From a virus, in IMG/VR virus record IMGVR_UViG_3300042541_001760, positions 1 through 53,688 of that record: DNA of 53,688 nt; one strand, 5' to 3'. The position numbers and the translations under genes were made by a program. This document shows, one piece after another, positions 1 through 18,340 of this stretch (positions are counted from its first letter, which is position 1; each line of letters opens with the position of its first letter). Below the pieces are notes generated by a model. It made no database searches. It saw nothing but the letters and a program-made list of their open reading frames with translations, and was not told the origin of the DNA.

Positions 1-905
1 TACTAGGAAATGGTGTTTCAGTTGGTGTGGCAGTGTTTGTTGGGGTTTTAGTATTGGTTGGTGTTTGAGTAGTAGTAGTAGTATTAGTAGGCGTTTGAGT
101 AGTAGTAGGAGTTACCGTTGGTGTTGGGGTTTGGGTTGTAGTAGTGGTAGGTGTTTCTGTTCTAGTAGGGGTGTTAGTTGGCGTTTCATTTTGTGTTGGG
201 GTATTAGTTGGTGTTTCAGTTTGTGTTGGTGTTGGTGTCTGAGTGTTAGTCCGAGTATTAGTCGGAGTTGGAGTGTTTGTGGTTGTTTCGGTTGGGGTAA
301 TGGTATTAGTCGGTGTATTTGTAGGTGTTTGCGTAGGTGTTTGTGTTGGGGTTTTAGTCGGTGATTTTGTCACCGGTGGTGTCATGGTTGGTGTAGGTGT
401 CGGTGTATTTGATGGAGTTACGTCAGGTGTTTGTGTTGGGGTTTGTGTCTGAGTACTTGTTGGTGTATTTGTTGGGGTATTTGTTGGGGTTGGAGATTCC
501 GGCGTTGTTGGGGTTGGTGTTGGGGTTGTAGTTTTTGTTGGTGTATTTGTTGGTGTATTTGTTGGTGTAACAGTATTTGTTGTCGTGTTTGTTGGCGTGT
601 TTGTTGGTGTGTTTGTTGGTGTATCGGTATTTGTTGGTGTATTTGTTGTTGTGTTTGTTGGTGTTCTTGTTGGGTTCGGACTCGATAAAGGGGTTTTTGT
701 GTTTGTTGGTGTAACAGTATTTGTTGGTGTTTGAGTCGCGGTTTGAGTCGCGGTGGTGGTTATTGTTGGCGTATTTGTTGGTGTAACAGTATTTGTTGGT
801 GTTTGAGTCTCGGTTTGAGTTGGGGTAATGGTTATTGTTGGCGTAACAGTATTGGTAGGGGTTTTAGTTGGGGTAACGGTAGGTGTTGGTGTTGTCGTGG
901 GTGTT
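1..905 (-). repeat. Mucin-like PTxT tract of the giant adhesin
   Basis: The plus strand is GT-rich degenerate repeats (GTTGGTGTTTG-like). Read on the minus strand they give almost uninterrupted P-T-N-T, P-T-Q-T and P-T-P-T units, about 300 residues before the window edge. The period is codon-phased (6, 12 or 18 nt), so this is protein-level repetition. One interruption near 360-385 reads [10 protein letters not shown], comparable to the KTPxxT motifs in the two neighbouring proteins. Confidence 0.9.
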
Positions 906-3900
906 GGGCATACCACATCACCATTTAGAACTAAATTACACTCATCACAATCGTCAAATAACCTATACGAACTAAATGGTAATGAGGTATTAGGTATACC
1001 TCTTGAAATTACGGTACAAGCACTAAATCCATCTTCGGTTGTTAGTAAAAACGTATTTTGGGTACTACTAATTAATATACCTAATAGATCCGGCTGATTA
1101 GTTAAGTCAATACGGTAAGTACCACAACAAGAACTTAAAACAATTGGTAAAGTAGTTGTGCTCGGAGTTGGGGTATGTGTAGGTGTTGGGCTAGGTGTTG
1201 GACAAGCTCCTCCGGGTAAGTAATTAGCAATACAAGTATCACAATCACCAGTGAAATTAAAAACATAATCAGCAGTTTCAAAAACAAGATTAACATAACC
1301 GTATGTTAATTTCGTACAACCCGAATACCCATCAGTTTCAATATAATAAATTTCATTTAGAGTTAATCCAGAAGCGATTGCTGGATTTGTAAATTTAATA
1401 TTGGTATTACCACAACAAGAAGAGAATACTAATTCTACTTTTGTTGGGGTAGGTGTTGGGGTTGATGTTTGAGTTGGGGTTCTAGATGGATTATTAGTTC
1501 TAGTAGGTGTAGGGGTTGACCTATTACTCGGCGTTGATGTTTTAGTTGCGGTTATTGTAGGGGTAACCGTAGGTGTTGGGGTTGGGGTAGGCGTTAACCC
1601 TAAACAATCATTACAACTATTGTAAGGCCCAATAAATGAAGTTATTTGATTAGGACAACAAGAACAAGACCCACTCATAGTAACAACAAAACAATCCGTC
1701 TCAACATAAGAAGAATTATTTAATTCGGTAATACTATTTTGGGTGCAATTATTATATGAAGTAAAATAACCCCCAACTATTAAATTTAGACCGTCGTTTG
1801 TTAATGATACTTTATAAGCCGAACCACCACCAAAACCATTTCCTGTGACAAATGAAGTTACAACAGATCCGGTGGAATCCAATTTAACAATACCATTATA
1901 AGTTACCCCTTGATATGTGGTGAAATTACCAACGATTATATAATTACCATCAGAATCAACCTCAATATCTCTTATTGTTCCTCCACTAAATCCAACTCCC
2001 GTATTGAAACTATTGTCTACTGTTCCGTTTGAATTTAACTTTATTAATCCATTATGATTAATTCCGTTATATTGAGTAAAGTCACCACCAACTAAAATGG
2101 TATCATCCCCTAATACTTTAACCGCATAGACCGAATTATTAAACCCTACCCCACAATTAAATGCCGGTTCGATATTACCACCATTTGTTAACGCCACTAT
2201 CTTATTAGATGATATTCCATCAAACTCAGTAAAAGACCCGACCGCAATTATTGTTCCATCAGATAATAAATCTATGTCATAAACATATTCATCATTAATA
2301 TTTGGTAAAAAACCTCCATTACCAAAACCAGGATCAACACTACCATTATAATCTAATCTTATTAGTTTATGATAATATATTCCTCCGGGGTTACTAAATG
2401 TACCCCCAACCAATATTTGATTATTAGGTTGTATTTTTATTTTAGATATTGCACCTCCATTGGGGAAGTTTATTGTAGTGAATCCTGGGTCTATTAATCC
2501 TGTCGAATCTACTCTTTGTATTAGGTTACCGGCAATGTTTACTTGTTGAGCTAAACCAACCAATACGTATGTGTCTGGTTGTTGAACAACTTCATTAACA
2601 TATACATAACTTGGACCTCCGTAATTAAATGTTGTATCTAAAGTACCATTAGGATTTAATCTTATGACCTCATCTGACAAACTAATACCACTATATTGTG
2701 AGAAATTACCCGCCAATAATACCTTATCATCAATTTGTACATCAACACCAATTACAAAATTATTAAATCCTGAACCAATTCTAAAATCTCCCGTATTAAT
2801 TGTTCCGGGTAAAATATTAATATTGACATCATATATTGAATTTAAAACCATTGTACTTGTGGTACATCCACTATAAACTCTTCCATCGGTACACGCACTT
2901 AATTCATAACAATATCTTTGAATGAATGTTGGGGTAACCGTTGGTGTTTGTGTTGGGGTTGCCGTATTTGTTGAGGTTACCGTAGGTGTTGCCGTATTTG
3001 TTGCGGTTACCGTAGGTGTTACCGTCGGTGTTGAGGTTGTTGTTGGTGTTGGAGTAGGACATATAATCCCTATTGTGTCCAATCTACATGTATCACAATC
3101 TAAATATTCGGATATTGAAACGAAATCGTATAATATGTCAGGGGCATGATTAACAACCGTAGTACATCCAGTATAGCCATCTGTAATTAAATAATATGTT
3201 ATTAATGGGTTTAAGGAATAAATTAATTCTGACTCTTCAGTTAAACCAATATAAATTTCATCACAACAATCTTTAAAGGCTTTTTGTGGTCTAGTTGGTG
3301 TTGGGCTAGGTGTTTGAGTTGGTGTTGGTGTAGGACAATTATTATTACCGGTACTATCTGTTAAACAATTAATACAATTAGTATAAGGATTACTAATAGA
3401 AATAAATTCGTAAAAGTTATCAGGTCTTACGGGAACAATAGTCACACAACCAACAAATTGAGATGTCTCAATATAATATGTTTTTGTTGGATCAAGTGTT
3501 GATATAAACTGAGTTTCCTCCATCAAGGAGAATAAATCAGTTGTACAACAAGAACTAAATCCTAATTGTGGTGACGGGCTTGTTGGGGTAACTGTTGGTG
3601 TTAGTGTTGGGGTAACTGTTGGTGTTAGTGTTGGTGTGACTGTTTTGGTTGCAGTTCGACTTGGCGTGACTGTTTTAGTTGTAGTTGGAGTTGGTGTTGG
3701 TGTTGAAGTCGCGCTTGTTGGAGAGGGGGTTTGGGTTGCGGTTTTTGTGGGTATTGGTAATGGAACCCACGGACCGGTGTTTGGTTGAGGTTCTACGTAC
3801 CCAAATGTTTTAGTTGGGGTTGGGGTTGGTGTCTTAGTTGGGGTTGTGGCAGGAGTTGCGGTGTTAGTCGGAGTTTGGGTTGGTGTAGGTGTTGGGCTAG

Positions 3901-4498
3901 GTGTTGGGCAAGCTCCTCCGGGTAAGTAAGTAGTAATACAAGTATTACAATCACCAATTACATTAAAAACATTATCAGCGGTTTCTAAAACAAGATTAGC
4001 ATAACCGTATGTTAGTTTTGTACAAGCTGAATACCCATCAGTTTCAATATAATAAATTTCATTTAGAGTTAACCCAGAGGCAATTGCCGGATCTATGAAT
4101 TTAATATTGGTATTACCACAACAAGAAGAGAATACTAATTCTACTTTTGTTGGGGTGGGAGTATGGGTTGACGTTTGAGTTGGGGTTGACGTTTGAGTTG
4201 GGGTAGGCGGGGTAGGCGGGGTAGGCGGGGTAGGCGGGTCAATTACGACCTCACCTTTATCGTTCAAGATTAGATAAGTTATACAATCACCATCTAAAAA
4301 CCCATCAGGGGTATTAATACCAATTACTCCATTAACGTAAGTTTCTGTAGACCCATCCGAATAAGTAATAGTTCCAGATGTGTTATCAATATTCGGAGTT
4401 ACAATTACGGTAACACAATTTGCCCCATTACAATCACATATAGTAATAGTATATGGACCACAACTATATATTAGACCATTAAATATTAATTCACACAT
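1..4498 (-). CDS. Giant modular Thr/Pro-rich virion adhesin with seven-repeat delta-60 propeller (C-terminus cut by window edge)
   Basis: The minus frame stays open from ATG at 4498 to base 1, so at least 1499 residues are present and the C-terminus is missing. In order: an N-terminal domain (about 1-80), a PPT linker, then Cys-rich modules of ~75 residues (each starting near S-S-C-C, with Y-x-E-T-D-G-Y-x-x-C-T and a closing D-C-x-x-C) separated by PTPT linkers. Residues ~560-915 form seven delta-60/DUF5122-type repeats (cores such as ILVGGDFT). Two more CC modules follow, then ~300 residues of PTNT-type sequence running off the edge. Delta-60 repeats are predicted beta-propellers, usually on exported bacterial proteins. 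I infer a tail fibre or capsid decoration adhesin. No catalytic motif is visible. TATTTAT lies 4 nt before the start. Confidence 0.85.
1207..1445 (-). repeat. CC module, second near-identical copy
   Basis: This ~80-residue module begins V-E-L-V-F-S-S-C-C and ends near C-D-T-C followed by Y-L-P-G-G-A-C. It is nearly identical to the module at 3907-4146, differing at only a handful of residues. Other modules in the same protein share only the Cys pattern. The match suggests recent duplication or gene conversion across ~2.7 kb that includes the propeller. Confidence 0.85.
1745..2810 (-). other. Seven-repeat delta-60 (DUF5122-type) beta-propeller domain
   Basis: Seven consecutive ~45-55 residue repeats can be read. 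Each has a D-V-x-I-x-x-D-D-x-like strand, then V-L-L-A-G-N-F or I-L-V-G-G-D-F, then an x-x-x-G-I-x-x-N-x-I-x-x-L segment, a D/N-x-N-G-T turn and a D-x-x-F-N end. Seven copies would close a seven-bladed propeller. Flanking sequences look like the two halves of a CC module, so the propeller appears inserted into one. Confidence 0.8.
3907..4146 (-). repeat. CC module, first copy
   Basis: This is the first complete Cys-rich module after the N-terminal domain. It shares S-S-C-C-G-N-T-N, the Y-I-E-T-D-G-Y core and the C-x-T-C end with the copy at 1207-1445. More diverged modules lie near 3345-3575 and 3050-3290 and at 905-1160. The paired cysteines suggest disulfide or metal stabilisation, which is inferred only. 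Confidence 0.85.
4200..4238 (+). repeat. Four tandem 9-bp GGGGTAGGC repeats, potential G-quadruplex
   Basis: Four perfect copies of GGGGTAGGC are followed by GGG, giving five G-runs of 3-4 separated by 5-nt loops on the plus strand. This is striking in such an AT-rich genome. The unit is three codons and encodes the P-P-T linker of the adhesin on the minus strand, so the G-rich strand is the transcription template. Confidence 0.85.
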
Positions 4499-4834: not shown

Positions 4835-6118
4835 TTAGTTAAATATTTGGTTTTTGGTTTTAGTTGGTGTTCTTGTTGGTGTTAGTGTTGGTGTTCTTGT
4901 TACAGGTGGGGTTTTACGAGGCGTTCTAGTTTGTGTTGGTGAATTTGTCGGAGTTGGTGTTGGGCATGAACATACATTATTAATATATGCGGTGGCACCA
5001 CATGCACTTGAGATAATACTAACGTTTAAAGCACAGACACTATCCGTCATAAATTTCTTTAGTGTACGTGTGGTTGTAATCCCAAAACAATCTGTTACAG
5101 AAAAATATGAGAAATCACAAAGCATACCCCCATAAAGATTCCAATTTGAGCAACATTTTGCTGGTGTTGGGGTTGGTGTTCTTGTTGGGGTTGGTGTTCT
5201 TGTTACAGGTGGGGTTTTACGAGGTGTTCTAGTTGGTGTAGGAGTAGGTAATGTAGTTTTTGTTGGGGTTGGTGAACTAGACTTACTGATACTAGGAGTT
5301 ACTGTAATAGTCGGTGTTACTGTTACAGGTGGGGTTTTACGAGGTGTTCTAGTTTGTGTTCTAGTTGGTGTTACTGTTCTAGTTGGTGTTACCGTTTTAG
5401 TTGGAGTTACTGTTGATGTTCTAGTTGGTGTTACCGTTTTAGTCGGAGTTACTGTTGATGTTCTAGTTGGTGTTACTGTTCTAGTTGGTGTTACTGTTCT
5501 AGTTGGTGTTGGGGTTGAACTAACGCAAGGTATTTGAACTAATGATGTTGAGAATCCGGAATCATCCGTTATACAACTAACCGCTCCACTGAAATTAATC
5601 CATTGAGATTCATCACCAATAGGTAATGTCGTATCTAAAGGTAATGTAGACCCTGTTAGACCTAAATTGATATAATATACCACCCACTCAATCCCATTCC
5701 AATAAATAGAATAATTTTTTGAATTAGGGTATACGAAAGTGAATGATCTTTTTCCGTTTATAATTGAGCCTTCAGTTGGTGACACAACCCCACATTCAGA
5801 TGAAACCGAAAAATATTCGCAAAAGTAACCACTAGTTGAGGTTAGTGTTGGTGTATTGGTTATGGTCGGAGTTACTGATGGGGTTGGTGTTGCACCTGTT
5901 ATACAACTTTCGCACTGACCACTCATGTACTCAGGAGTAATAAAATTAGTAACACCACTTGATGTTCCTGTAAAAGATTCTAAATAATAACATGTTGTAC
6001 CACTACCATTATTATAGGACACTATGTCTCCAATTGAAAAAGCAGATAAAATTATATTAAAATTTATATCGTTAGTTGATGTTAGACAGTCGGTAAATAA
6101 TGAAGCGGTGTAAGACAT
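4835..6118 (-). CDS. Thr/Pro-rich modular virion protein with KTPPVT motifs
   Basis: The protein has 427 residues: an N-terminal Cys-containing module (about 1-80, ending C-E-S-C), a short PTPS linker, a second folded region (about 95-200) containing Y-W-N-G-I-E-W-V-V-Y-Y, a Thr/Arg/Pro tract (about 200-320), a CC module (starting C-C-S-N-W) and a terminal PT tail. The tract repeats T-R-T-P-R-K-T-P-P-V-T three times. Unlike its neighbours it is rich in Arg and Lys, giving a basic mucin-like stalk. It shares module types and linkers with both flanking giant genes and is probably part of the same fibre or decoration apparatus. A TATTTAT element lies 19 nt upstream. Confidence 0.8.
   Translation of the reverse strand: MSYTASLFTDCLTSTNDINFNIILSAFSIGDIVSYNNGSGTTCYYLESFTGTSSGVTNFITPEYMSGQCESCITGATPTPSVTPTITNTPTLTSTSGYFCEYFSVSSECGVVSPTEGSIINGKRSFTFVYPNSKNYSIYWNGIEWVVYYINLGLTGSTLPLDTTLPIGDESQWINFSGAVSCITDDSGFSTSLVQIPCVSSTPTPTRTVTPTRTVTPTRTSTVTPTKTVTPTRTSTVTPTKTVTPTRTVTPTRTQTRTPRKTPPVTVTPTITVTPSISKSSSPTPTKTTLPTPTPTRTPRKTPPVTRTPTPTRTPTPTPAKCCSNWNLYGGMLCDFSYFSVTDCFGITTTRTLKKFMTDSVCALNVSIISSACGATAYINNVCSCPTPTPTNSPTQTRTPRKTPPVTRTPTLTPTRTPTKTKNQIFN
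4901..5353 (-). repeat. Three dispersed 30-bp repeats encoding RTPRKTPPVT
   Basis: Near-perfect 30-bp copies lie at 4901-4930, 5204-5233 and 5324-5353, with one T/C difference in the first copy. Each contains GGTGGGGTTTTACGAGG on the plus strand and encodes the same peptide in frame. High nucleotide identity suggests recent internal duplication or recombination. Confidence 0.85.
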
Positions 6119-6144: not shown

Positions 6145-9100
6145 TCACGGAGTACAAGAAGTGCAACCACTAAATGTGGAACCTGTCCAAGAAATTGAAA
6201 TTCTTTCTATAGGACTTTCTTGTACACCTCTATATTCCCAACATCCTGTGATACCTGATAATTTAACTACTTGATTAATAGTTAATCCTGACAAATTAGA
6301 GTTAGTGTATATACATTCTCTACTATCTCCACTAAAGAATCTATTAAAAGAATTTTGAATTGTTGTAGAACTAAAGTCTGTTACCGTAGGGTCAATATTC
6401 CAATCAAAGTTAATTAGACCAGCCCCATTCCTATCCAACACATTCAACGAAGTATATCCGGTTAATGATGTGTATGTTGAGAATGGATTAAGTGTCTGTA
6501 ATGTCACGAACGTCCAATTGTTACCCAACTCAGAGTTTATGTTTGGCCAAACCCCACCATTAAAATTATAATTAGAGAAGTAAGATGCTGACCTTGTTTG
6601 ACCTTCAATCAACGCTAACGACTCTAAAATAAATTGGAATGACTGAGCCTCCACAGTCAAGAAACCTTCAACAAGGTTACCATTTGGATTTACAAATAAT
6701 AGGTTATTTACTTTTTTACCTAAAGTGTTTGTAAAATAATTCCAAGATGTTAGGTAATTGTTATAATCCTTTTGAACTCCCGTATTGTTAATATAGAAAT
6801 TTGATGGTAAAGATGATGTATTACCATTTGTTAATGTAGACCCTGTTCGTGTATATATCGGAGAAGATTCATTAATTACACATATAGCAATAAAACTATC
6901 CGTTTCAGGGGTGAAATTACCTGCGGTTGAGAATTGTGTTAATTCCGCATGATTAAATGGAACACCTTGAGATCCGTATATATCTGAAGTTATAGTAGGG
7001 TATGATGCGAAATCCCAACCATTATTAATTATTTGTTTAACTGACGTATCGTTTGATATACCACTATATAGTAAAGAGTTATTATCAACGTAGTTACCAC
7101 CAATTGTCGCTCCCGATAAAGTTCCTGTTATAGGATAAATCGGCCAAGAAACCCATCTTTCATCCCACAATACCATCTCATAAAGAGACCCTGTATATCC
7201 ACTTGTTAATGTTAATCCACTATACCAAGTTCTAACACTTAAAGCAACATCTTGTAATAACGAATCACTATATGACCCAGAACCGTCATAGAAAACATAA
7301 ATATTTCTATCCAAATTAGGATTACAGTTACATAGTACGTCAGATAATATATTTGACCTTGGGCTTGGTGTGTTTGTTGGAGTTACCGTTTTAGTTGGGG
7401 TTATTGATGATGTAGGGGTGACAGTTTTGGTTACACTAGGGGTTAGCGTATTTGTTCTTGTTATGGTAGGAGTTACCGTATTAGTTGGAGTTTCAGTTTG
7501 TGTTGGGGTTGTTGTTTGTGTTGGAGTTTTAGTTGCAAATGGAGTTCTATTGGGAGTTTTTGTTGGAGTTGTTGTTTTCGTAGGGGTAACGGTGCTAGTT
7601 GGCGTAGTCGTATTTGTTGGAGTTTCAGTATTTGTCGGAGTTGTTGTTTTTGTGGGAGTAACTGTGATAGTTGGGGTGGGGGTATTTGTTGGGGTTGTGG
7701 TGTTTGAAGGTGGTATAGTAATAGTTGGAGTAGGTGTTTTAGTTGATGTTGGGGTGATAGTATTTGTCGGTGTTGGTGTATTTGTTGGTGTATTTGTTGG
7801 TGTTTCAGTATTTGTTGGTGTCGTTGTATTTGTTGGAGTTTGAGTTGCGGATGGAGTTTTTGTTTGGGTTATTGTGTTTGTAGGTGTTTGTGTTTGTGTG
7901 GCGGTAACTGTGTTGGACGGCGTTTGAGTATTTGTTGGTGTGGATGTCTGAGTTGGAGTTTTAGTATTTGTTGGTGTTGTTGTTTGAGTTGGAGTCTCTG
8001 TTCTGGTTGGTGTTTGTGTAATCGTATTCGTAGGTGTTGAGGTATTAGTTGAGGTAGGTGTTTTTGTATTTGTTGGAGTTACAGTATTGGTAGGTGTAAC
8101 TGTGCTAGTTGTAGTATTTGTATTAGTTATAGTGTTTGTGGGTGTTTGTGTAGATGTTGGCGTTCGAGTTGCGAATGGAGTTTTAGCGGGGGTTTTAGTG
8201 TTAGTTGGGGTCTGAGTAATTGTTTTAGTCGGAGTATTTGTTGGTGTTGATGTAATTGTATTAGTTGGGGTGGGGGTAGGTGTTTTTGTGTTAGTTGGAG
8301 TTATAGTATTAGTAGGTGTAACTGTATTAGTTGGGGTTTTAGTAGGTGTAACCGTATTAGTTGGTGTAGATGTTTTTGTGGGTGTTTTTGTATTGGTTGG
8401 GGTTAGGGTATTTGTAGTAGTAACAGTAGAAGTTATCGTATTAGTAGGGGTTGCAGTATTTGTTGGTGTTTGAGTATTAGTAGGGGTTTTAGTTGCAAAT
8501 GGAGTTTTAGCCGGAGTTTTAGTGCTAGTTATTGTTTGTGTGGGTGTTTGTGTAATAGTGTTAGTTGGTGTTTGGGTTCTAGTGTTTGTAGGTGTCTGAG
8601 TTGGTGTTTTAGTATTTGTTTGGGTTTGAGTATTAGTAGGAGTTTGAGTATTAGTAGGGGTTTGAGTATTAGTAGGGGTTTTAGTATTAGTAGGAGTTTT
8701 AGTATTAGTAGGAGTTTGAGTATTTGTTGGTGTGGATGTTATTTGAGCAGGTGTTATAGTTGGAGTAACAGTAGTTGTTTTAGTTGGAGTTATAGTATTA
8801 GTAGGAGTTATAGTATTAGTAGGAGTTTGAGTATTTGTTGGTGTGGATGTTTGAGTTTGAGTATTAGTTTGAGTTTGAGTATTAGTAGGGGTTTTAGTTG
8901 CAAATGGAGTTTTAGCCGGAGTTTTAGTGTTTGTAGGTGTTTGTGTTTGAGTTTGTGTGGTAGTGTTAGTTGGGGTTTGAGTATTTGTATTTGTAGGTGT
9001 CTGAGTTGGAGTTTTAGTATTTGTTGGTGTAGGTGTTTGAGTTGTCGTTTCTGTGTTGGTAGGTGTTTGAGTAATTGTATTTGTAGGTGTTGGCGTTTCT

Positions 9101-11322
9101 GTGTTGGTAGGTGTTTTTGTGTTAGTAGGAGTTATAGTATTAGTAGGAGTTTGAGTATTTGTTGGTGTGGATGTTTGAGTTTGAGTATTAGTTTGAGTTT
9201 GAGTATTAGTTGGGGTTTTAGTCGCAAATGGAGTTTTAGCCGGAGTTTTAGTGTTTGTAGGTGTTTGTGTTTGTGTCGGTGTAGGTGTGGATGTTATTTG
9301 AGCAGGTGTTATAGTTGGAGTAACAGTAGTTGTTTTAGTTGGGGTAACGGTAGTGGTTGGCGTTACCGTATTAGTCGGAGTATTCGTAGGTGTGGGTGTT
9401 GGTAATATACTAAAAGTAAAATCATTAGGTAAACAAGTAATGCCGCAATTAGGACAATCAGGGTCAAATAAATTAAATGTTGGTTTTAGTATTGAGAAAT
9501 TATGTTTAACCTCCGGAGCGGAAAGCGGTGAAACGTACATCCTGAATTGGGAAATACCCCCATTAAAAGTACCAGCAAAATTCTGTTCAATTAATATGTT
9601 TGTTGTAAGGGCGGATAATGAAGTTCCACTTAATACATTGTTAGGAAATAATTCAGGATCTTGAATATAAACATTGGTGTTACCTGTAGGACATGCAGAG
9701 AATGTTAAGTTTTCTCTTAACCCTTGTGTTCCACCACCCCAACTTATACTAAAAGGGACTCCTATTTGTTTTTCTTTTTCTGTATTTAAACCACGAGGTA
9801 TTATTTCCTCTACGTCTTCAACCACAAAGAAAACTTTACCATTTACATATATCTTTAATCTACCCTTTCTATATGAACCGTCCAATAACCATTTTTCATT
9901 TAATTGGACTATTTCAATTTGTTCAGGAGTTAAATTATCGTGAGTTACGGGTGGCTTTATTAAATAAACGGTATTGTTTGCTAGTGAGTCCAGATATTCA
10001 AACTTGGTAATATCCCCTAACCCACCTCTATAAAATAAATCACAAGTATCTAACCAAGTATATCTTTCCCAAACAACATCCACCAAAAACCAATGTTCTG
10101 ATATTGTAAAGGCCGAATTAACTGGAACACAATAGTCATATATCCCGTTTTCAGAGCAATAATCATCAACCGTATATCCTGTTGTATATGTAATTCCTGA
10201 TGTATTACAAGAACCTGTTGTTTCGCAATCACCTGTGAATCTTAAAATTCTTACACCAATTTTTGGGTTATCATCGTCACCACATAATCTAAGTGACATT
10301 GCGTTTGACATTGAATCATAAATCGGATCCTTGTCAGGTATGTTACTAATTGTTCCATTTGAGCATCCGCAACCACAACCAATATCGTGAGTTACAGTAA
10401 TTCCTGATGGATTATAAACGTCAACACATCTTGAATTAGTTACACCTGTGTCAGCACAAGCGCAAGTTTTTAAACAGTCAACTAATGACTCCGTTACTCT
10501 TGTATATCCTGTGTCAGAAGATGGGACACCTGCCGCATGGTGATAAAACTTGTTTTCCGCCCTTGTACCCATATAAAAGAACGTGTTCTTATTATTTGGA
10601 TAAATTTCGTTTAATGTGGTTTGACCTGAAGATGGAGTGAATTCATTTGTTAAACGAGGCTTCAAAACCATTTCAACAGACCAACCCTTATTCATTCTTG
10701 ATGGAAAAATATCATAATCAAAACCGAATAACTTATAGAATCCTTGGTAGAATCCACCATATAATTCTTGATAGTAACCTTCCGTAGTTCCCGTTTTTGA
10801 TACTATTTCATATAGAGTTTGTCCTGTTATACCTGAGAATCTTACATTTGGTTCTGAGGTGTAACCTGTGACTTGAAAAAACTTTAATCTTCTATCAAAG
10901 GATAACCTGTCAAATTTTTGAGAATCATCTAATAATCCGTTTGTAAAGGATATTGTTTGTCCCGTCATTCCGGTAACCAAACCATTATCAATTCCTGTTA
11001 ATCCAATGTCACATGCGGTTTGTGCAGTTAAACAAGTTAAATCAATATTATCAGGATTATAATAATTTTCAGATACGATAATGTTGTTAAAATCATAAGT
11101 ACCATAAGTCAATATAGGTTGTGTTGTGGTACCAGTACTATTTAAATCAAAATAAAATGGTAATCTATTGCCGTGAGTTTGAGCAATCAAATAAGGTGAA
11201 AAAACAACTTCTTGATTATAATCAACTTCATCGGAAGCCAAAGAAATGTCTGTTAAATCTAAGAGATATGGACTTAAATAAAATTTCTTATAAACATATT
11301 GATTAATGTTTTGTTGAGCCAT
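6145..11322 (-). CDS. Giant LamG-like / mucin-like / vWA-like virion protein
   Basis: ATG 11322 (M-A-Q-Q-N-I-N-Q) gives 1725 residues; it is preferred over a GTG 24 nt upstream because its leader (AAAATATAATGG) matches that of the capsid gene. Residues ~1-635 are a folded head with LamG/concanavalin-like signatures: [10 protein letters not shown] and G-G-I-S-Q-F-R-M-Y. Residues ~637-1320 are a ~680-residue Pro-Thr tract with about five KTPFAT motifs. Residues ~1335-1600 resemble a vWA domain with a perfect MIDAS DxSxS (D-G-S-G-S, near residue 1347). The end contains G-C-T-S-C. I infer a long fibre or whisker with binding domains at both ends of a mucin stalk. Virion location is inferred from context. 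Confidence 0.85.
7370..9410 (-). repeat. Mucin-like PTNT repeat tract with segmental duplications
   Basis: About 680 residues of P-T-N-T, P-T-Q-T and P-T-K-T units. Motifs of the type [10 protein letters not shown] recur near 7530, 8170, 8490, 8895 and 9220. Longer duplications are visible: the segment at 8831-8885 recurs at 9156-9210, and the segment encoding [10 protein letters not shown] near 8740 recurs near 9290. Repeat number here is likely to vary between strains and to challenge short-read assembly. Confidence 0.9.
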
Positions 11323-11336
11323 TATATTTTTTATTG

Positions 11337-11343
11337 ATAAATA
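11337..11343 (-). promoter_or_regulatory. TATTTAT element for the giant LamG/vWA gene
   Basis: The minus strand reads GTATTTATCAATAAAA, ending 14 nt before ATG 11322. It is the mirror image of the element at 11357-11363 serving the divergent plus-strand gene, so the 54-bp gap has one copy facing each way. Confidence 0.55.
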
Positions 11344-11356
11344 CACGACATTGAAG

Positions 11357-11376: not shown

Positions 11377-12228
11377 ATGATAAATTTTAATGAAGAGTAT
11401 TTTTCTAAACCTTACTATTTCTACCTAAAGGATAGAGGTAACAAGGTATCTTTGTACTATTCCGTGTCAGAGACATTATCAGAGTCAAGAAAGCAGGACA
11501 AGAAAATGGATTTTGATAAAAAAGATAGTCCTAAAATTAAGAATTTGATCGGTAAAATAATGAAAAATAAATCGGTAAAATCTACCGATGAGGTAACAAA
11601 AAGTTTAAAAAATATAAAAACTAAAAAACCAACAGAACTTGAAGAGTTGGTTGATGACGACGGAACAATGTCAACTTCAAAAGTTCCAATCCTTAATAAG
11701 TGGTTGACACCTAAAAGAACGATGGACCAAACTATTGTTGCCACAAGACAAACTAATAACCCAATTACTCGTGGTTATAGAACTTATTATGGTGAAAGTG
11801 TTGAAGAAGAACCTACTGTTAATGAAATTGATTACTCGGATGCTTTTGGATATGAAGAAACAAAAGATATGGACGGTAAAGATACATTCAAATCTTTAGT
11901 TAAAACTTTGGGTATGGAACCTGATGAAGCAAAACAAAGAACAAAACAATTCGGCAAAGACCCGTCAGGCAAAAGAGATAAAAAATCCAAATATAAAAAC
12001 GATAAAAATTTTATTGCTAAGATGACAATTTCCGAAAGAGAAAAAATGGAAATGAGTAAAATGGTTGATGAAATGTTGGCAAAAAGATCGAAGGATAATT
12101 CCGAAGTTCAAAATAAAGAAACCACCGTAAGTAAAATGTTAAAGAAAAATATTGAAGCGATTAAAAAAATTGCGGATAACGAAGGTATCTCAATAAACCA
12201 ACTAATTAAAATTCTTAAAAGTGAATAA
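11377..12228 (+). CDS. Uncharacterised Lys/Glu-rich protein
   Basis: This 283-residue protein starts M-I-N-F-N-E-E-Y-F at the first ATG after the divergent promoter gap. Residues ~40-80 and ~170-235 are highly charged. The C-terminal ~45 residues look helical and end [13 protein letters not shown], compatible with a helix-turn-helix-like or coiled-coil end. No enzyme motif or membrane segment is seen. It overlaps the next gene by 8 nt and heads a compact five-gene cluster. I do not recognise the family; a virion-assembly or internal protein is possible given the shared late-type promoter motif. Confidence 0.75.
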
Positions 12229-12691
12229 GGATTTATACGGAAAAGAGATTAAGATTCCTGTGGAGATTAAAAATCACCTTAAGAATTCTTCTATGTCAAT
12301 AGGTGAAACATCCGAAAACGAAGAAGGGGCGAAAAGAAATAAGGAACTTCAAGACCAAGAATCAATGACCTACCAACAACTAAAAAGGGTTAAGAATTGG
12401 TTTGACGATTATAATGGAAATAAAGAAGACGCTCCATATATTTTAAATGGTGGAGATTATATGAAAAAATGGGTGGATGATACGTTAAATTATTTAAGAA
12501 CGGATATTTATAATACAAAGAAAAATAGATCTGAAGTGTTACCGAATCAATTTAATTCTGACCACACAAAGGACGATTTAAAAACAATGAATAGACCAAG
12601 TAAATCACATAATAACCCCATTGACCAATATAATATTAAAATAACAGAAAACCTGAAAAGGATAAACGAAATAATGAAAAAAATAATCTAA
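12221..12691 (+). CDS. Uncharacterised protein (156 aa)
   Basis: It begins at an ATG that overlaps the previous gene by 8 nt, suggesting translational coupling. The protein is polar and charged. It contains Q-L-K-R-V-K-N-W-F-D-D-Y-N-G and G-G-D-Y-M-K-K-W-V-D-D-T-L, followed by a C-terminal helix ending L-K-R-I-N-E-I-M-K-K-I-I. The terminal amphipathic helix resembles those of other small proteins in this window, but it lacks the final hydrophobic-x-Glu. Family and function are unknown. The next gene starts 2 nt after its stop. Confidence 0.75.
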   Translation: MNKDLYGKEIKIPVEIKNHLKNSSMSIGETSENEEGAKRNKELQDQESMTYQQLKRVKNWFDDYNGNKEDAPYILNGGDYMKKWVDDTLNYLRTDIYNTKKNRSEVLPNQFNSDHTKDDLKTMNRPSKSHNNPIDQYNIKITENLKRINEIMKKII

Positions 12692-12692
12692 C

Positions 12693-12983
12693 ATGGCAAC
12701 ACTTTTTCCAATTGATTTTACTCAACCAAACAACGCTTTGGGACAAATCGCAAAAGAAGAAAGAATTAGAGAAATTAAAATAAACGATTACAAACAAACC
12801 GCAAACGAATATTCGTCAGTTAATAGGGACGCAATGGCCGATGGGGATGGTTTTGGTAAAGGTACTGGTATCTTTCTTGACATCTTAAATGGTGGTTCGT
12901 CTGACGATTTCAGAGAAAGAAAAGAACAAATTAAAATCAACGCTTTCCAAGTAAGCAAACCATACACTACACCTAAGGCTTAA
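12693..12983 (+). CDS. Small uncharacterised protein (96 aa)
   Basis: It begins M-A-T-L-F-P-I-D-F and is a polar, soluble-looking protein with a Gly/Asp-rich middle (A-D-G-D-G-F-G-K-G-T-G) and a Lys/Arg-rich second half. No Cys, membrane segment or known motif is visible. Its stop codon overlaps the start of the WYL gene by one base (TAATGA). Position in the five-gene cluster is the only functional clue. Confidence 0.7.
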   Translation: MATLFPIDFTQPNNALGQIAKEERIREIKINDYKQTANEYSSVNRDAMADGDGFGKGTGIFLDILNGGSSDDFRERKEQIKINAFQVSKPYTTPKA

Positions 12984-13390
12984 TGAAACTTTACAACAGT
13001 TTAAAATCCCTTATCCTTGAGATAGCGTCAGTTGACTCTGTTACCGACTCTATTAAGAATCGACAAGTTGTCTCAATTTACTATACGGGTGACGAACCTG
13101 GAGGTAAAGGATTAAGGATTATTGAACCTGTTTGTTTAGGATATAGTAAAGCGGGAAACTTAGTGTTAAGGGCTTGGGATACTGACGGAGCGTCGCATAC
13201 CGCTTATTTGGGTAAACAACCCAAACCTAGTTGGAGATTATTTAGATTGGATAAAATCGTAATGTATAAATCAACGGGGGATACATTTAATGAGGCTAGA
13301 CCAAACTACAATCTTAGTGGGGATAAAAGTATGACAAACGTTTTAATTAACGCAAAATTTGATAATACACCAACACAACAAATAGCATAA
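12983..13390 (+). CDS. Stand-alone WYL-domain protein
   Basis: The 135-residue protein has a WYL-type pattern: V-V-S-I-Y-Y-T-G-D, then R-I-I-E-P-V-C-L-G-Y-S-K-A-G-N-L-V-L-R-A-W-D, then W-R-L-F-R-L-D-K-I-V. The R-x-I-E-P and R-L-D-K-I signatures are typical. WYL domains are ligand- or nucleic-acid-sensing folds, usually attached to a helix-turn-helix in bacterial regulators or linked to defence effectors. Here no DNA-binding domain is present; only ~20 N-terminal residues precede the fold. It may sense nucleic acid or a nucleotide and modulate a partner. It sits between small unknown genes with 1-2 nt spacing. Confidence 0.65.
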   Translation: MKLYNSLKSLILEIASVDSVTDSIKNRQVVSIYYTGDEPGGKGLRIIEPVCLGYSKAGNLVLRAWDTDGASHTAYLGKQPKPSWRLFRLDKIVMYKSTGDTFNEARPNYNLSGDKSMTNVLINAKFDNTPTQQIA

Positions 13391-13391
13391 C

Positions 13392-14003
13392 ATGAGAACA
13401 GAAAATGATTTGATACAAAAACTTATGATATCCAAAAAAATAATGGATAAGCATAGTGAGATGCCAAGAGGCGGAGTTTCTGAAGGTTTGTCAAACTACT
13501 CAACACCTGAAGTTGCCGAATATAACGCACCTCAAGCGACATTCAATATTCCAAATGAATATCTAAGTGAATCGGAAATTAGTAAACCTGTTAATAATAA
13601 TCCACAACCATTAACGAAGGATAGGATTTTAAGTTCTAAATTACCCGACGAAATTAAAAGGTTGATGATGGAACATCCAATAGACCAACCAAACCAAGGT
13701 GGGGCGACATTATCTGACGACTTAGTTCAAAAAGCGGCTAGATTAATGAATACTAATAAGGGGTCTATTAATGAAACATCAACACCTAAAAAAACACAAC
13801 AATCACAACCCCAACCTAAACAACAACAATCGTCAATTAACTTGAACGAAATTAGAGATGTTATTAGAGAAACTGTGGAAGATGTATTAAAAGAAAATGG
13901 TTTATTAGTTGAGAGTACATCAAGAACGAATGATTTATTCACATTTAAAGTTGGTAAACATATATTTGAAGGTAAATTAACAAAAATAAAAAAAATTAGT
14001 TAG
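13392..14003 (+). CDS. Uncharacterised protein with hydrophobic-x-Glu helical tag
   Basis: This 203-residue protein is low-complexity and Gln/Pro/Asn-rich in the middle (Q-S-Q-P-Q-P-K-Q-Q-Q). Near residue 155 it has an amphipathic helix I-R-D-V-I-R-E-T-V-E-D-V-L-K-E followed by a short beta-like end (F-T-F-K-V-G-K-H-I-F-E-G-K-L). The helix matches a motif repeated in the genes at 46932 and 48410 and ends L-K-E, a fit to T4 prohead protease sites. It is the last gene before the terminator at 14027. It could be an internal head protein, by inference. Confidence 0.75.
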   Translation: MRTENDLIQKLMISKKIMDKHSEMPRGGVSEGLSNYSTPEVAEYNAPQATFNIPNEYLSESEISKPVNNNPQPLTKDRILSSKLPDEIKRLMMEHPIDQPNQGGATLSDDLVQKAARLMNTNKGSINETSTPKKTQQSQPQPKQQQSSINLNEIRDVIRETVEDVLKENGLLVESTSRTNDLFTFKVGKHIFEGKLTKIKKIS

Positions 14004-14026
14004 TATTAGTTTTATTAATTTTATAT

Positions 14027-14057
14027 AACCCTACGGCAATTAGTCGTGGGGTTTTTT
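14027..14057 (+). terminator. Rho-independent terminator
   Basis: A 7-bp stem (CCCTACG pairing with CGTGGGG, one G-T pair) is extended by A-T pairs and followed by a run of six T. It closes the 11377-14003 cluster. Confidence 0.8.
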
Positions 14058-14128
14058 ATTTTATATTAGCCAATAACTTGAATTAGTGTTAAAATATCTT
14101 TATACTTTGGGAAACACAATTATTTAAT

Positions 14129-15355
14129 ATGACAAAAATTAAAGTATTAGTCCTCCCCTCAGATAAAACGGGTGTAGGTAAATTCAGATCCGTTGACCCC
14201 CACACTTTCCTACAAAATATGTACCCTGATGATTTTCATGTGGACATTGACTACGAACCACGTATTAACGATATGAATTATTGGAAACAATATCAGATTG
14301 TTCATATCCATAGAAATATCGGACATTCATACGAACAAACCCCTAACATTATTAAAATGTTAAGGAGTATGGGTATTGTTACAATTGTTGATTTGGATGA
14401 TTATTGGATGCCTGGTAAAGAACATCCGATTCACGACATTATCAGAGCAAATAAGATTAATGAAAAAATCGTGGAGAATCTTAGACATCCTGACTATGTT
14501 ACAACCACCACCACTATTTTTGCTGACGAGATTAAAAAGTTTAACAAAAATGTGGAGATTTTCCCCAACGCAATTGACCCAAAAGAAAGTCAATTTAATG
14601 AACTAACATTACCATCTGATAAGATTCGTGTTGGTTGGTTGGGCGGATCATCTCACTTACATGATTTAATGTTATTGGACGGAATGGTTTCAAAACTAAA
14701 TCCAATTCAGGATAAATTACAATTTGTCGTTTGCGGATTTGATACAAGAGGAACTATCACTGAAATTAATCAACAAACGGGAGAACAAAAACAACGACCA
14801 ATACTACCACACGAAACGGTATGGGCTAAATATGAATCAATCTTCACGAACAATTATCAAATCATAACACCTGAATATAAAACATTCTTGGATAAGTTTA
14901 AGGAAGAATATTATGAAGGTGAGGAGTTTGGTAACTACCGAAGGGTATGGACTAAACCTGTTACGTCATATGCAACTAACTATTCAAAGTTTGATATCTC
15001 GTTAGCCCCAATTAAGAATCACATTTTTAATCGTGTTAAGTCACAACTTAAAGTTATTGAGGCGGGATTCTATAAGAAAGCAATTATCGCATCTGAAGTC
15101 GGACCTTATACGGTTGATTTGAAACACGCACTTAAAGATGGTAAATTTACAGATGGAAATGCTTTAATGGTTAAAGATTCAAGAAATCATAGTGATTGGG
15201 CTTCAAACATTAAGAAATTGGTTGATAATCCTAATATGATTATTGATATGGGTGAGCGTCTTTATGAGACAGTAAAAGACGAATATGACCTAAATAATGT
15301 AACAAGAAAACGTGCTGATTGGTACAAAGAAATTGTAAATAAAAAGAACAAATGA
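14129..15355 (+). CDS. GT-B glycosyltransferase
   Basis: This 408-residue protein has a GT-B layout. The N-terminal Rossmann half starts K-V-L-V-L-P-S-D-K-T-G-V-G-K-F-R, with V-H-I-H-R-N and V-D-L-D-D-Y-W. The C-terminal half starts near residue 165 (I-R-V-G-W-L-G-G-S-S-H) and contains S-L-A-P-I and K-V-I-E-A-G-F, the acidic sugar-nucleotide site typical of GT4-like enzymes. The sugar and acceptor cannot be told. It is separated from the upstream cluster by a terminator and a ~70-nt leader and overlaps the exonuclease gene by 4 nt. This is probably a core phage gene rather than part of the island, since it lies among replication genes. Confidence 0.75.
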   Translation: MTKIKVLVLPSDKTGVGKFRSVDPHTFLQNMYPDDFHVDIDYEPRINDMNYWKQYQIVHIHRNIGHSYEQTPNIIKMLRSMGIVTIVDLDDYWMPGKEHPIHDIIRANKINEKIVENLRHPDYVTTTTTIFADEIKKFNKNVEIFPNAIDPKESQFNELTLPSDKIRVGWLGGSSHLHDLMLLDGMVSKLNPIQDKLQFVVCGFDTRGTITEINQQTGEQKQRPILPHETVWAKYESIFTNNYQIITPEYKTFLDKFKEEYYEGEEFGNYRRVWTKPVTSYATNYSKFDISLAPIKNHIFNRVKSQLKVIEAGFYKKAIIASEVGPYTVDLKHALKDGKFTDGNALMVKDSRNHSDWASNIKKLVDNPNMIIDMGERLYETVKDEYDLNNVTRKRADWYKEIVNKKNK

Positions 15356-16086
15356 TAAACATCCCAATTACTAAAATATTATTTTTGGATATTGAAACTG
15401 TAGGTATATCTAAGGACTATAACACTTGTAAAAGTGAACGTCCTGAGATTGCCGAACAATTCTCAAAATACTTTGATTGGTTTTTAAAACGTTTTACTGA
15501 AGATGCTAACTTTAATTTAGTTGGTAATGGATCCACCGAAGAAGAACATATGGATTATGTTTTTAAAAAAAGATCCGCACTTGTTCCTGAGTTTGCGAAA
15601 ATTGTTTGTGTGTCAGTTTCATTCGTAACAGATAAAGGTGATATTAAATCACAAACTTTTTCAGGTGATGATGAAAAACAAGTATTGTTGGATAGTCAAA
15701 ACTTATTGGAGAGATGTGGTAAATTAGGATTCTATTTGTGTGGACATAACCTAAAGAATTTTGATATTCCAATGCTCGCAAAACGAATGGTTATCAACGG
15801 ATTATTACCACCATCAATACTTCCAAGTTATGATACAAAGCCTTGGGAAATTAAAGCGATTGACACCAAAGAAATTTGGCAGTTCGGTTCTTATACCTCA
15901 ATTGGGTCTTTGGATTTAATGTGTACTTGTATGGACATACCTTCACCAAAAGAGGGTGAGATAACAGGGGAAAAAGTTCATGATTCTTATTGGATTGATG
16001 GTAAATTGAAAGAGATTGCCGAATACTGCGAACGAGATGTTAAGGTATTGGTAGATGTAATAAAAAAATTAAAAGAATTGAAATAA
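15352..16086 (+). CDS. DEDDy 3'-5' exonuclease (DnaQ/PolB-exonuclease type)
   Basis: The 244-residue protein carries the three exonuclease motifs: Exo I L-D-I-E-T (D13, E15), Exo II H-N-L-K-N-F-D-I-P-M-L and Exo III Y-C-E-R-D-V, whose Y-x-x-x-D makes it the DEDDy class. This fold removes 3' nucleotides for proofreading or DNA processing. It is a stand-alone exonuclease resembling the predicted PolB-like exonuclease domain, with no polymerase domain. An ATGA overlap links it to the upstream glycosyltransferase, and it shares one base with the dUTPase gene. Confidence 0.85.
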   Translation: MINIPITKILFLDIETVGISKDYNTCKSERPEIAEQFSKYFDWFLKRFTEDANFNLVGNGSTEEEHMDYVFKKRSALVPEFAKIVCVSVSFVTDKGDIKSQTFSGDDEKQVLLDSQNLLERCGKLGFYLCGHNLKNFDIPMLAKRMVINGLLPPSILPSYDTKPWEIKAIDTKEIWQFGSYTSIGSLDLMCTCMDIPSPKEGEITGEKVHDSYWIDGKLKEIAEYCERDVKVLVDVIKKLKELK

Positions 16087-16709
16087 TGGAAGACCAAAAG
16101 GAGTTTGAAGAAATGCAAGCTAAACTACTACAACTTAAGGAGTTCATATCACAAAATATGGGAGACCATGAGGAGGAAGAAGATGAGGATATTGATTATG
16201 ATTTAATCAAATCTGAATTCGGTGTTGATTTAATGGCAATGGAGAATGAAATTATGTCACGTAAAGAACAATCTCCGTTAAAATATAACCTTGTTCATCC
16301 TGACGCAATTGACCCAAAATATAATTACGAATCCGACTCAGGATTTGATTTATATTCAGTTGAGGATATTGTTATACCCCCATTTGGTAGGGCATTAGTT
16401 CCGACGGGTATTTGTTTTGACATTCCCGAAGGATTGGAGATTCAAGTTAGAACAAAGAGTGGATTGGCTATTAATCAGGGTTTAATGGTAATGAATTCAC
16501 CTGGAACGGTAGATGCGGGTTACAATGGAGAAGTTAAAGCAATTATATTTAATACTAATAACTCTGAATTCACAATTAAGAAGGGTATGAAAGTTGCTCA
16601 AGGTGTATTATGTCCCGTATTAGCCGGTGGATATGTGGAATTAATTAAAGTATCGGAAATAAAAGAAAAAGACAGAAACTCAAACGGTTTCGGATCAACA
16701 GGAATATGA
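16086..16709 (+). CDS. dut: dUTP diphosphatase (trimeric dUTPase)
   Basis: All five trimeric dUTPase motifs are present: (1) S-G-F-D-L-Y, (2) R-T-K-S-G-L-A, (3) G-T-V-D-A-G-Y-N-G-E with the catalytic Asp and uracil-contacting Tyr, (4) G-M-K-V-A-Q-G-V, (5) N-G-F-G-S-T-G. The enzyme hydrolyses dUTP to dUMP and PPi, limiting uracil in phage DNA and feeding dTTP synthesis. At 207 residues it is longer than the usual ~150 because of a ~75-residue acidic N-terminal extension (E-E-E-E-D-E-D-I-D-Y-D), which may bind a partner. It is the last housekeeping gene before the sugar island, with a 4-nt overlap. Confidence 0.95.
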   Translation: MEDQKEFEEMQAKLLQLKEFISQNMGDHEEEEDEDIDYDLIKSEFGVDLMAMENEIMSRKEQSPLKYNLVHPDAIDPKYNYESDSGFDLYSVEDIVIPPFGRALVPTGICFDIPEGLEIQVRTKSGLAINQGLMVMNSPGTVDAGYNGEVKAIIFNTNNSEFTIKKGMKVAQGVLCPVLAGGYVELIKVSEIKEKDRNSNGFGSTGI

Positions 16710-18340
16710 TAACAATAGGGTATAGTACAAGAACATCAAATCCACAATTTTCCGAATATTTGAAAAAATCATCAGGATTAAAGGATGTTGAGGTGATTGA
16801 GAAAGTTAATAATGGTGAAAAGTCATTGTCTCAGGTTTATAATGAGATAATTGACGAATCATCAAATGACATTATTGTGCTTTGTCACGACGACATCTAT
16901 TTTGACACAAAGAATTGGGGTAAAAGATTATTAAGGTCTTTTGAAAAAAATCCTGAGTTTGGTATCTTGGGAGTTGCTGGAAGCACTTATATGCCAAAAT
17001 CAGGTCAATGGTGGGAAGATAGATCAAAAATGGTTGGTGTAGTTAATCACGAACATCAAGGTAAAAAATGGGAGTCTAAGTACTCAATAAATGAAGAGCA
17101 TGAAATTAAGGAAACTGTTATAGTCGATGGATTATTTATTGCTTTAAATAAAAATAAAATAAAAAAAGGATTCGACGAATCTGTTGAGGGTTTTCATTTT
17201 TATGATGTTGAATTCTCATTTCAAAATCATTTAGACGGGGTTAAGGTCGGTGTTATGTTTAACGTAAGGGTAACCCATAAATCAATTGGGCAAACTAATC
17301 AGAAGTGGGAGGAAAATAGAAATATTTTCGCGGAAAAAAATAAAAACATATTACCCATTAAGATAAAATACAAAGACACTGATAAACTTAATGTTTTAAT
17401 AGGATGTCTATTTTTTCAAAAATTCACAGGTTCAGAAATGTATGTTTTTGAGTTATCAAAGAATTTAATTAAATTAAATTGTAATGTAACCATTGTTGCA
17501 TCTGAAACAAATGGACCTTTAGTTAGTATAGCCGAAAAATTGGGTGTAAAAGTTAAAAATATTAAAGAGTCACCAGGATATAAATTAGGTGATGGTAAGT
17601 GGATGCTTAATACACAAAATGGTCAAGAAATATCAAAACCGAATCAATATTATAAAATGTCGGAAGTTAATTTTGATATTATTCATTGCCAACACAAACC
17701 AATAGTCGATGTGTTAAATATGTTGTATCCAACAATAGATAAGATATGTACTATACACTCTGAAGTAATTGATTTGGAAAATCCAGTAATACACCCAACA
17801 ATTAAAAAATACATTGCGATTAGACCCGAAATAAAAGACCAAATAGTAAATAAATTTGGAATTGATGAAAATCTTGTTGAGGTTATTTATAACCCTGTTG
17901 ACGAAACAAAGTTTTATAATAAAAATCTAAAATCAAAAAATTATATATTATTTGTTGGGTCAATTGATTATTTAAGAGAAAAAACGATTAGAGATTTAAT
18001 TGAGGTATCTAAAAATGAAAATAAAGAACTGTGGTTAGTGGGAGAAAATAAATCAAATTATTTGAATGAGATACTCCTAAATAATCACGTTAAACATTTC
18101 GGACCGACATTAGATGTAAATAAATATATTCACGAATGTAGTGAAACTGCCGGTATTTTATTGGGTAGAACAACAATAGAAAGTTGGATGAGTGGAAAAC
18201 CAAGTTGGATTTACAATGTGGATAATTTGGGTAATATTATAGGGAAGGAACTACACGAGTGTCCGAATGATTTGGAAAAATTTAACTCAAAAGTAGTATC
18301 AGAAAAAATAAAAGAAGAATATATAAAAATTTTAAATTAG
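16706..18340 (+). CDS. Two-domain glycosyltransferase (GT2-like + GT4-like fusion)
   Basis: The 544-residue protein fuses two transferase folds. Residues ~1-215 are GT-A-like: I-V-L-C-H-D-D-I-Y-F contains the metal-binding acidic pair, followed by G-V-A-G-S and F-H-F-Y-D-V-E-F. Residues ~230-544 are GT-B-like: F-T-G-S-E-M-Y-V-F-E-L-S, I-Y-N-P-V-D, Y-I-L-F-V-G-S and G-R-T-T-I-E-S-W-M-S-G-K-P. The two could add successive sugars. It is the first gene of the sugar island, overlapping dut by 4 nt. Sugar specificity is unknown. Confidence 0.8.
   Translation: MITIGYSTRTSNPQFSEYLKKSSGLKDVEVIEKVNNGEKSLSQVYNEIIDESSNDIIVLCHDDIYFDTKNWGKRLLRSFEKNPEFGILGVAGSTYMPKSGQWWEDRSKMVGVVNHEHQGKKWESKYSINEEHEIKETVIVDGLFIALNKNKIKKGFDESVEGFHFYDVEFSFQNHLDGVKVGVMFNVRVTHKSIGQTNQKWEENRNIFAEKNKNILPIKIKYKDTDKLNVLIGCLFFQKFTGSEMYVFELSKNLIKLNCNVTIVASETNGPLVSIAEKLGVKVKNIKESPGYKLGDGKWMLNTQNGQEISKPNQYYKMSEVNFDIIHCQHKPIVDVLNMLYPTIDKICTIHSEVIDLENPVIHPTIKKYIAIRPEIKDQIVNKFGIDENLVEVIYNPVDETKFYNKNLKSKNYILFVGSIDYLREKTIRDLIEVSKNENKELWLVGENKSNYLNEILLNNHVKHFGPTLDVNKYIHECSETAGILLGRTTIESWMSGKPSWIYNVDNLGNIIGKELHECPNDLEKFNSKVVSEKIKEEYIKILN

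Follow-up and report, generated by a model that had tools for sequence, protein, structure and literature searches.

A large T4-like virus encodes a stalked protein with a conserved head and exchangeable C-terminal modules

We have found that a 1,725-residue protein of a large uncultured virus belongs to a family in which viruses keep the N-terminal head and exchange all that follows it. The gene lies in a stretch of 53,688 nucleotides (hereafter the window) that forms the left end of a 261-kb virus record (IMG/VR IMGVR_UViG_3300042541_001760). The protein consists of a head, a long Thr/Pro-rich stalk and a C-terminal tip, and we think it probable that it is a modular adhesin on the virion surface whose tip, mounted on the stalk, can be replaced. 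A first-pass annotation of the sequence had emphasised the tip, describing it as a von Willebrand factor A (vWA) domain with a perfect metal-ion-dependent adhesion site (MIDAS). The modularity, which that annotation missed, is the stronger finding: the tip in the window is one of many interchangeable modules.

Results

A single gene under purifying selection

The frame is uninterrupted from 6145 to 11346 on the minus strand, where an in-frame GTG at 11346 lies 8 codons before the ATG at 11322 from which we number residues. Head, stalk and tip are thus read from one open frame (Table 1), as the first-pass annotation had it. When the gene is compared with that of L004, the closest relative carrying the whole protein (~80% identity in the head and likewise in the tip), dN/dS is 0.083 for the head, 0.081 for the tip and 0.235 for the stalk. 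Because head and tip are conserved at a dN/dS of about 0.08, the frame is not a chance reading of the repeat; the gene is real and selected as protein, with purifying selection on both ends. Long opposite-strand frames across the stalk were rejected as genes, since they are mirror images of the repeat.

Table 1. Features of the adhesin gene and its surroundings in the window
Feature	Coordinates	Strand	Basis or remark
Whole gene	6145..11322	-	1,725 aa from ATG
Head, residues 1-640: LamG/ConA-like domain, probable virion anchor	9403..11322	-	Relatives, AlphaFold2, Foldseek, alignment
Stalk, residues 641-1319 (~680): Thr/Pro repeats	7366..9402	-	Composition, tandem repeats
Tip, residues 1320-1725: vWA-like first ~260 residues plus further conserved region	6148..7365	-	Relatives, alignment; AlphaFold2 model poor
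DGSGS (DxSxS), residues 1346-1350, after first predicted strand	7273..7287	-	Alignment
Asn-Glu after fourth predicted strand, at the vWA third-loop Asp position	6868..6873	-	Alignment
Cys-rich terminal module of tip	6148..6357	-	Related modules in other large proteins
Conserved syntenic block: WYL domain, two glycosyltransferases, 3'-5' exonuclease, dUTPase, unknowns	11377..18340	+	Synteny
Next gene downstream: second Thr/Pro-repeat protein, 427 aa	4835..6118	-	Not syntenic in relatives
Third Thr/Pro-repeat protein, at least 1,499 aa: DUF5122 beta-propeller repeats between Cys-rich modules	2..4498	-	PF17164, E 4e-40

The virus is T4-like: the window holds a T4-type major capsid protein (PF07068, E 1.5e-72), and portal, large terminase and baseplate wedge genes are found in the same record. 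The gene of the 1,725-residue protein is outside both the head and the tail gene clusters of the genome. Two further Thr/Pro-repeat proteins follow it, the second of which is truncated at the left edge of the contig. We rejected completing that gene by a join of the two contig ends, since the contig end has no matching repeat. We also note that positions 14129 to 41321 of the window carry a long run of genes beside the adhesin locus, including glycosyltransferase, nucleotidyltransferase and sugar-epimerase-like genes, which may decorate the virion or alter the host surface.

The head is conserved and what follows it is exchanged

Viral contigs contain at least 148 stretches that encode relatives of the head. 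Head identity ranges from 46 to 97%, and the head evolves at the pace of its upstream neighbours. Each gene of the adjoining syntenic block is present at 59-78 of about 80 loci, and across these loci gene order holds as far as the head gene and breaks down beyond it.

For a comparison of C-termini we took 81 proteins with a full head and clustered their extensions of at least 20 aa. The extensions fell into 22 clusters with no detectable similarity between clusters. Eighteen of the 81 proteins stop within 30 aa of the end of the head, and 39 contain at least 10 PT pairs. In one relative (L070, 8001-11588) the head is followed by a short PT linker and a tip recognised by Pfam as VWA (PF00092, E 5.1e-7), with the motifs LDYTGSM and LITDA. 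In three others the head precedes a papain-like cysteine protease (PF00112, E down to 3e-7; L031 10131-10961, L057 10137-10841 and L071 3127-3870), which by its sequence is possibly an enzymatic tip. The layout found here, a conserved anchor end and an exchanged distal end, is that of receptor-binding proteins.

The genuine vWA family of L070 also ends relatives, in L176-L178, of the protein encoded at 231066-234068 of the genome, within the tail/baseplate cluster; in L176-L179 this arrangement lies around 5001-5708. In two other contigs (L041 5776-9647 and L042 995-4866) the head is spread over two frames, the first with residues 1-157 and a PT stretch and the second with residues 154-626, which reflects either a gene split or an insertion.

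The head is predicted to be a LamG/ConA-like jelly roll

An AlphaFold model of the head built with 39 sequences reached a pTM of 0.75 and a pLDDT of 66. In a Foldseek search of the PDB its top match was the minor pilin PilC (E 4.9e-4), followed mostly by lectin-type jelly rolls. Against BFVD there were 20 matches with E below 1e-3, several named ConA-like or LamG-like, and these include ConA/LamG-annotated phage proteins and two virion structural proteins of the Synechococcus phage S-PM2 (Q5GQW3 and Q5GQW2; E 5e-6 to 8e-4). By Foldseek the modelled head thus has a jelly-roll fold in common with virion proteins of large tailed phages. Sequence identity to LamG/ConA phage virion proteins is about 8-10%. 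The head has no Pfam match over the cut-off, Laminin_G_3 (PF13385) reaching E 0.094 and 13.3 bits against a cut-off of 27.6. The LamG-like head of the first-pass annotation can therefore be upheld, with moderate confidence, as a modelled fold and not as membership of the Pfam family. In comparison with known LamG/ConA phage virion proteins, members of the head family are ~550-750 aa long, carry long insertions and have no relative in cultured phage records.

More distant heads also exist as proteins of ~550-690 aa without a stalk, on contigs assigned to rumen Bacteroidales, Paludibacteraceae, a Prochlorococcus single-cell genome and others. Four of these (L115, the Prochlorococcus contig, and L116, L117 and L119; 28-37% identity) are filed under bacterial genomes and are presumably phage sequence. 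Cultured phage records held no relatives of two distant heads either.

Sugar binding is common among ConA-like folds, which raises the question of whether the head itself is a lectin that binds host glycans, the stalk and tip being accessory parts for shielding, spacing or contacts with other virion proteins. This is the main functional rival to an adhesive tip, and the 18 relatives with little beyond the head indicate that a head can function without a tip. We nevertheless consider it unlikely, as viruses that otherwise differ greatly share a conserved head, which evolves no more quickly than the adjacent enzymes; surfaces that bind hosts tend to diversify, and in this family the part that is exchanged is the C-terminus.

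The stalk is a Thr/Pro repeat of variable length

The stalk contains 334 Thr (49%) and 111 Pro (16%), and its DNA consists of tandem repeats, so the PT-repeat stalk of ~680 residues described in the first-pass annotation is as reported. Its length varies, from 682 residues here to 866 in a relative. From its composition the stalk is likely to be extended and possibly O-glycosylated. An extended chain spans 0.25-0.3 nm per residue, at which a stalk of this length could reach some 170-200 nm. The two glycosyltransferases of the conserved block could glycosylate the stalk; we offer this as a suggestion only, because the block is kept at nearly all loci, even those where the head protein has no stalk.

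The tip is probably vWA-like, with an incomplete MIDAS motif

The vWA assignment began with the DGSGS motif, which alone would be expected by chance because several other frames of the genome also contain DxSxS. Among nine relatives of the tip (30-80% identity) the motif is intact in seven, and in the other two it reads DGT-S, with one residue lost. At the position of the third-loop Asp of vWA domains, seven have NE and two DE, the Glu being invariant, and no conserved column corresponds to the second-loop MIDAS Thr. This Glu could stand in for the Asp. A MIDAS depends on residues from other loops besides the first, and what the first-pass annotation called a perfect MIDAS is by sequence incomplete: the first loop is present, and the Thr and the canonical third loop are not.

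The AlphaFold2 model of the tip is poor (pTM 0.38, pLDDT 40). The predicted order of elements, beta1-DxSxS-alpha1-beta-alpha-beta4-alpha-(beta)-alpha, fits that of vWA domains, and about 19 of the best 50 Foldseek matches of this weak model are I-domain or vWA folds by description (integrin, Ku, Sec23, factor B, VWF and related proteins), every one of the matches having E above 0.7. No such fold is found among the best 50 matches of the head model.

Profile methods did not recognise a vWA domain. The whole protein and the tip relatives had none in Pfam (PF00092/PF13519, curated cut-off), NCBIfam or PDB sequences, and a profile search of the genome for PF00092/PF13519 also returned none. In hhalign comparisons with 55 bacterial vWA domains, the tip was matched only at the strand and DxSxS, and 18 of 200 column shuffles equalled the score; the genuine phage vWA of L070 gave 93.5% against the same set in the same test. 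Across hhalign comparisons with the bacterial set and the L070 family, the tip aligned at the strand and DxSxS only or not at all, and a BLASTP comparison of the tip with the L070 vWA found nothing significant.

It is possible, if somewhat doubtful in our view, that the tip has a different alpha/beta fold, restricted to these viruses, in which DxSxS is coincidental or used differently. This would account for the silence of vWA profiles, PDB sequences and hhalign in a setting where a genuine phage vWA is easily detected, and for the motif residue lost in two relatives. It sits less well with the order of elements, the placement of DxSxS after the first strand, the conserved [ND]E after the fourth and the enrichment of I-domain folds among the structural matches. 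The motif, the element order and the low-confidence model lend the vWA reading partial support, and on balance we favour a vWA fold for the window's tip; a working metal site is a more tentative proposal, which we think rather less likely than not.

Beyond the vWA-like layout the tip has a further conserved region of ~80 residues and then the Cys-rich end module, neither of which belongs to the vWA or integrin I-domain plan. The end module recurs in an open reading frame of L005/L006 (E 3.6e-7) and at 228319-228534 of G000 (E 4e-7), the latter copy lying in a small frame among the tail/baseplate genes. Members of the tip family are found in three settings: joined to the head (the window and L004), within giant Thr/Pro proteins (L005 and L083), and as a separate protein of ~845 aa without a long stalk (L086 and L087). 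We note that in L005/L006 (10364-17917 and beyond) the head protein is 660 aa long and the vWA-like tip is part of another, giant Thr/Pro protein, whose open frame exceeds 3,300 aa and includes Cys-rich modules and DUF5122 repeats. Cultured phage records contained no relatives of the tip, and neither did bacterial genomes, in searches of which one lacked a positive control.

Discussion

The conservation of the head, the exchange of everything behind it and the Pfam-level VWA tip of L070 make a binding tip on a long stalk the best-supported reading, as the first-pass annotation had proposed with more certainty than we would attach to it. We infer that the protein is carried on the virion and oriented such that the LamG/ConA-like head would fasten it to the particle, the Thr/Pro stalk would keep the tip at a distance from the particle, and the C-terminal tip would act as an exchangeable binding module that probably contacts a molecule of the host surface. 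In the virus studied here this module would most likely fold as a vWA-like alpha/beta domain, and the contact might perhaps be aided by a divalent metal at the DxSxS loop, which is a guess.

This arrangement resembles that of T-even type adhesins and tail spikes, in which the anchor end is conserved, the distal end is exchanged and a variable region lies beside a conserved block. It differs from them in having a LamG-like anchor, a Thr/Pro stalk in place of a trimeric fibre, and tips that are vWA-like or proteases. The tip in turn has in common with vWA and integrin I domains the DxSxS after the first strand and a predicted alternation of strands and helices, and its list of Foldseek matches is rich in I domains, but it differs in having no statistical support from sequence comparison, no conserved Thr, and NE for the third-loop Asp.

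LamG3 domains are present in jumbo phage fibres (PMC7824862). The known jumbo-phage vWA proteins are mainly MoxR-vWA co-chaperones and members of Ter systems such as TerF (PMC7824862), and more generally the phage and archaeal-virus vWA proteins in the literature are co-chaperones, CobT-like or TerF. The literature that we searched, with partial coverage, contained no vWA-tipped phage fibre. These precedents would be in keeping with a protein that acts inside or on the infected cell, for instance by altering its surface or by assisting assembly in the manner of the MoxR-vWA co-chaperones. We regard such a role as improbable given the very long Thr/Pro stalk, the match in fold between the LamG-like head and virion structural proteins of S-PM2, and the way tips are exchanged where a conserved block ends.

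Some indication of the host comes from ribosomal protein S21, which was over the cut-off in six of 11 records tested, all with this head; the window's own record had no S21 match over the cut-off. Phages of Bacteroidetes that encode bS21 have been described from fresh water in the portion of a study considered here (PMC9723584), with which the presence of S21 in six head-bearing records is consistent, and the hosts of the viruses studied here are probably freshwater Bacteroidota. The head-stalk-tip protein is not described in that portion of the study (PMC9723584).

Returning to the stalk-mounted adhesin, it is conceivable, though we hold this loosely, that integrin-like vWA domains serve these viruses as metal-dependent tips on a mucin-like stalk with a LamG-like anchor, and are swapped with binding or enzymatic modules such as proteases. 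If so, the viruses would possess a plug-in adhesin platform made of components that animal cell-adhesion proteins also use. It would represent a new type of host-contact device in phages, with a lectin-fold anchor, a flexible Thr/Pro stalk and plug-in tips (vWA, protease and others), would provide a natural catalogue of tips for testing, and would explain how widespread uncultured large freshwater phages change their host contacts.
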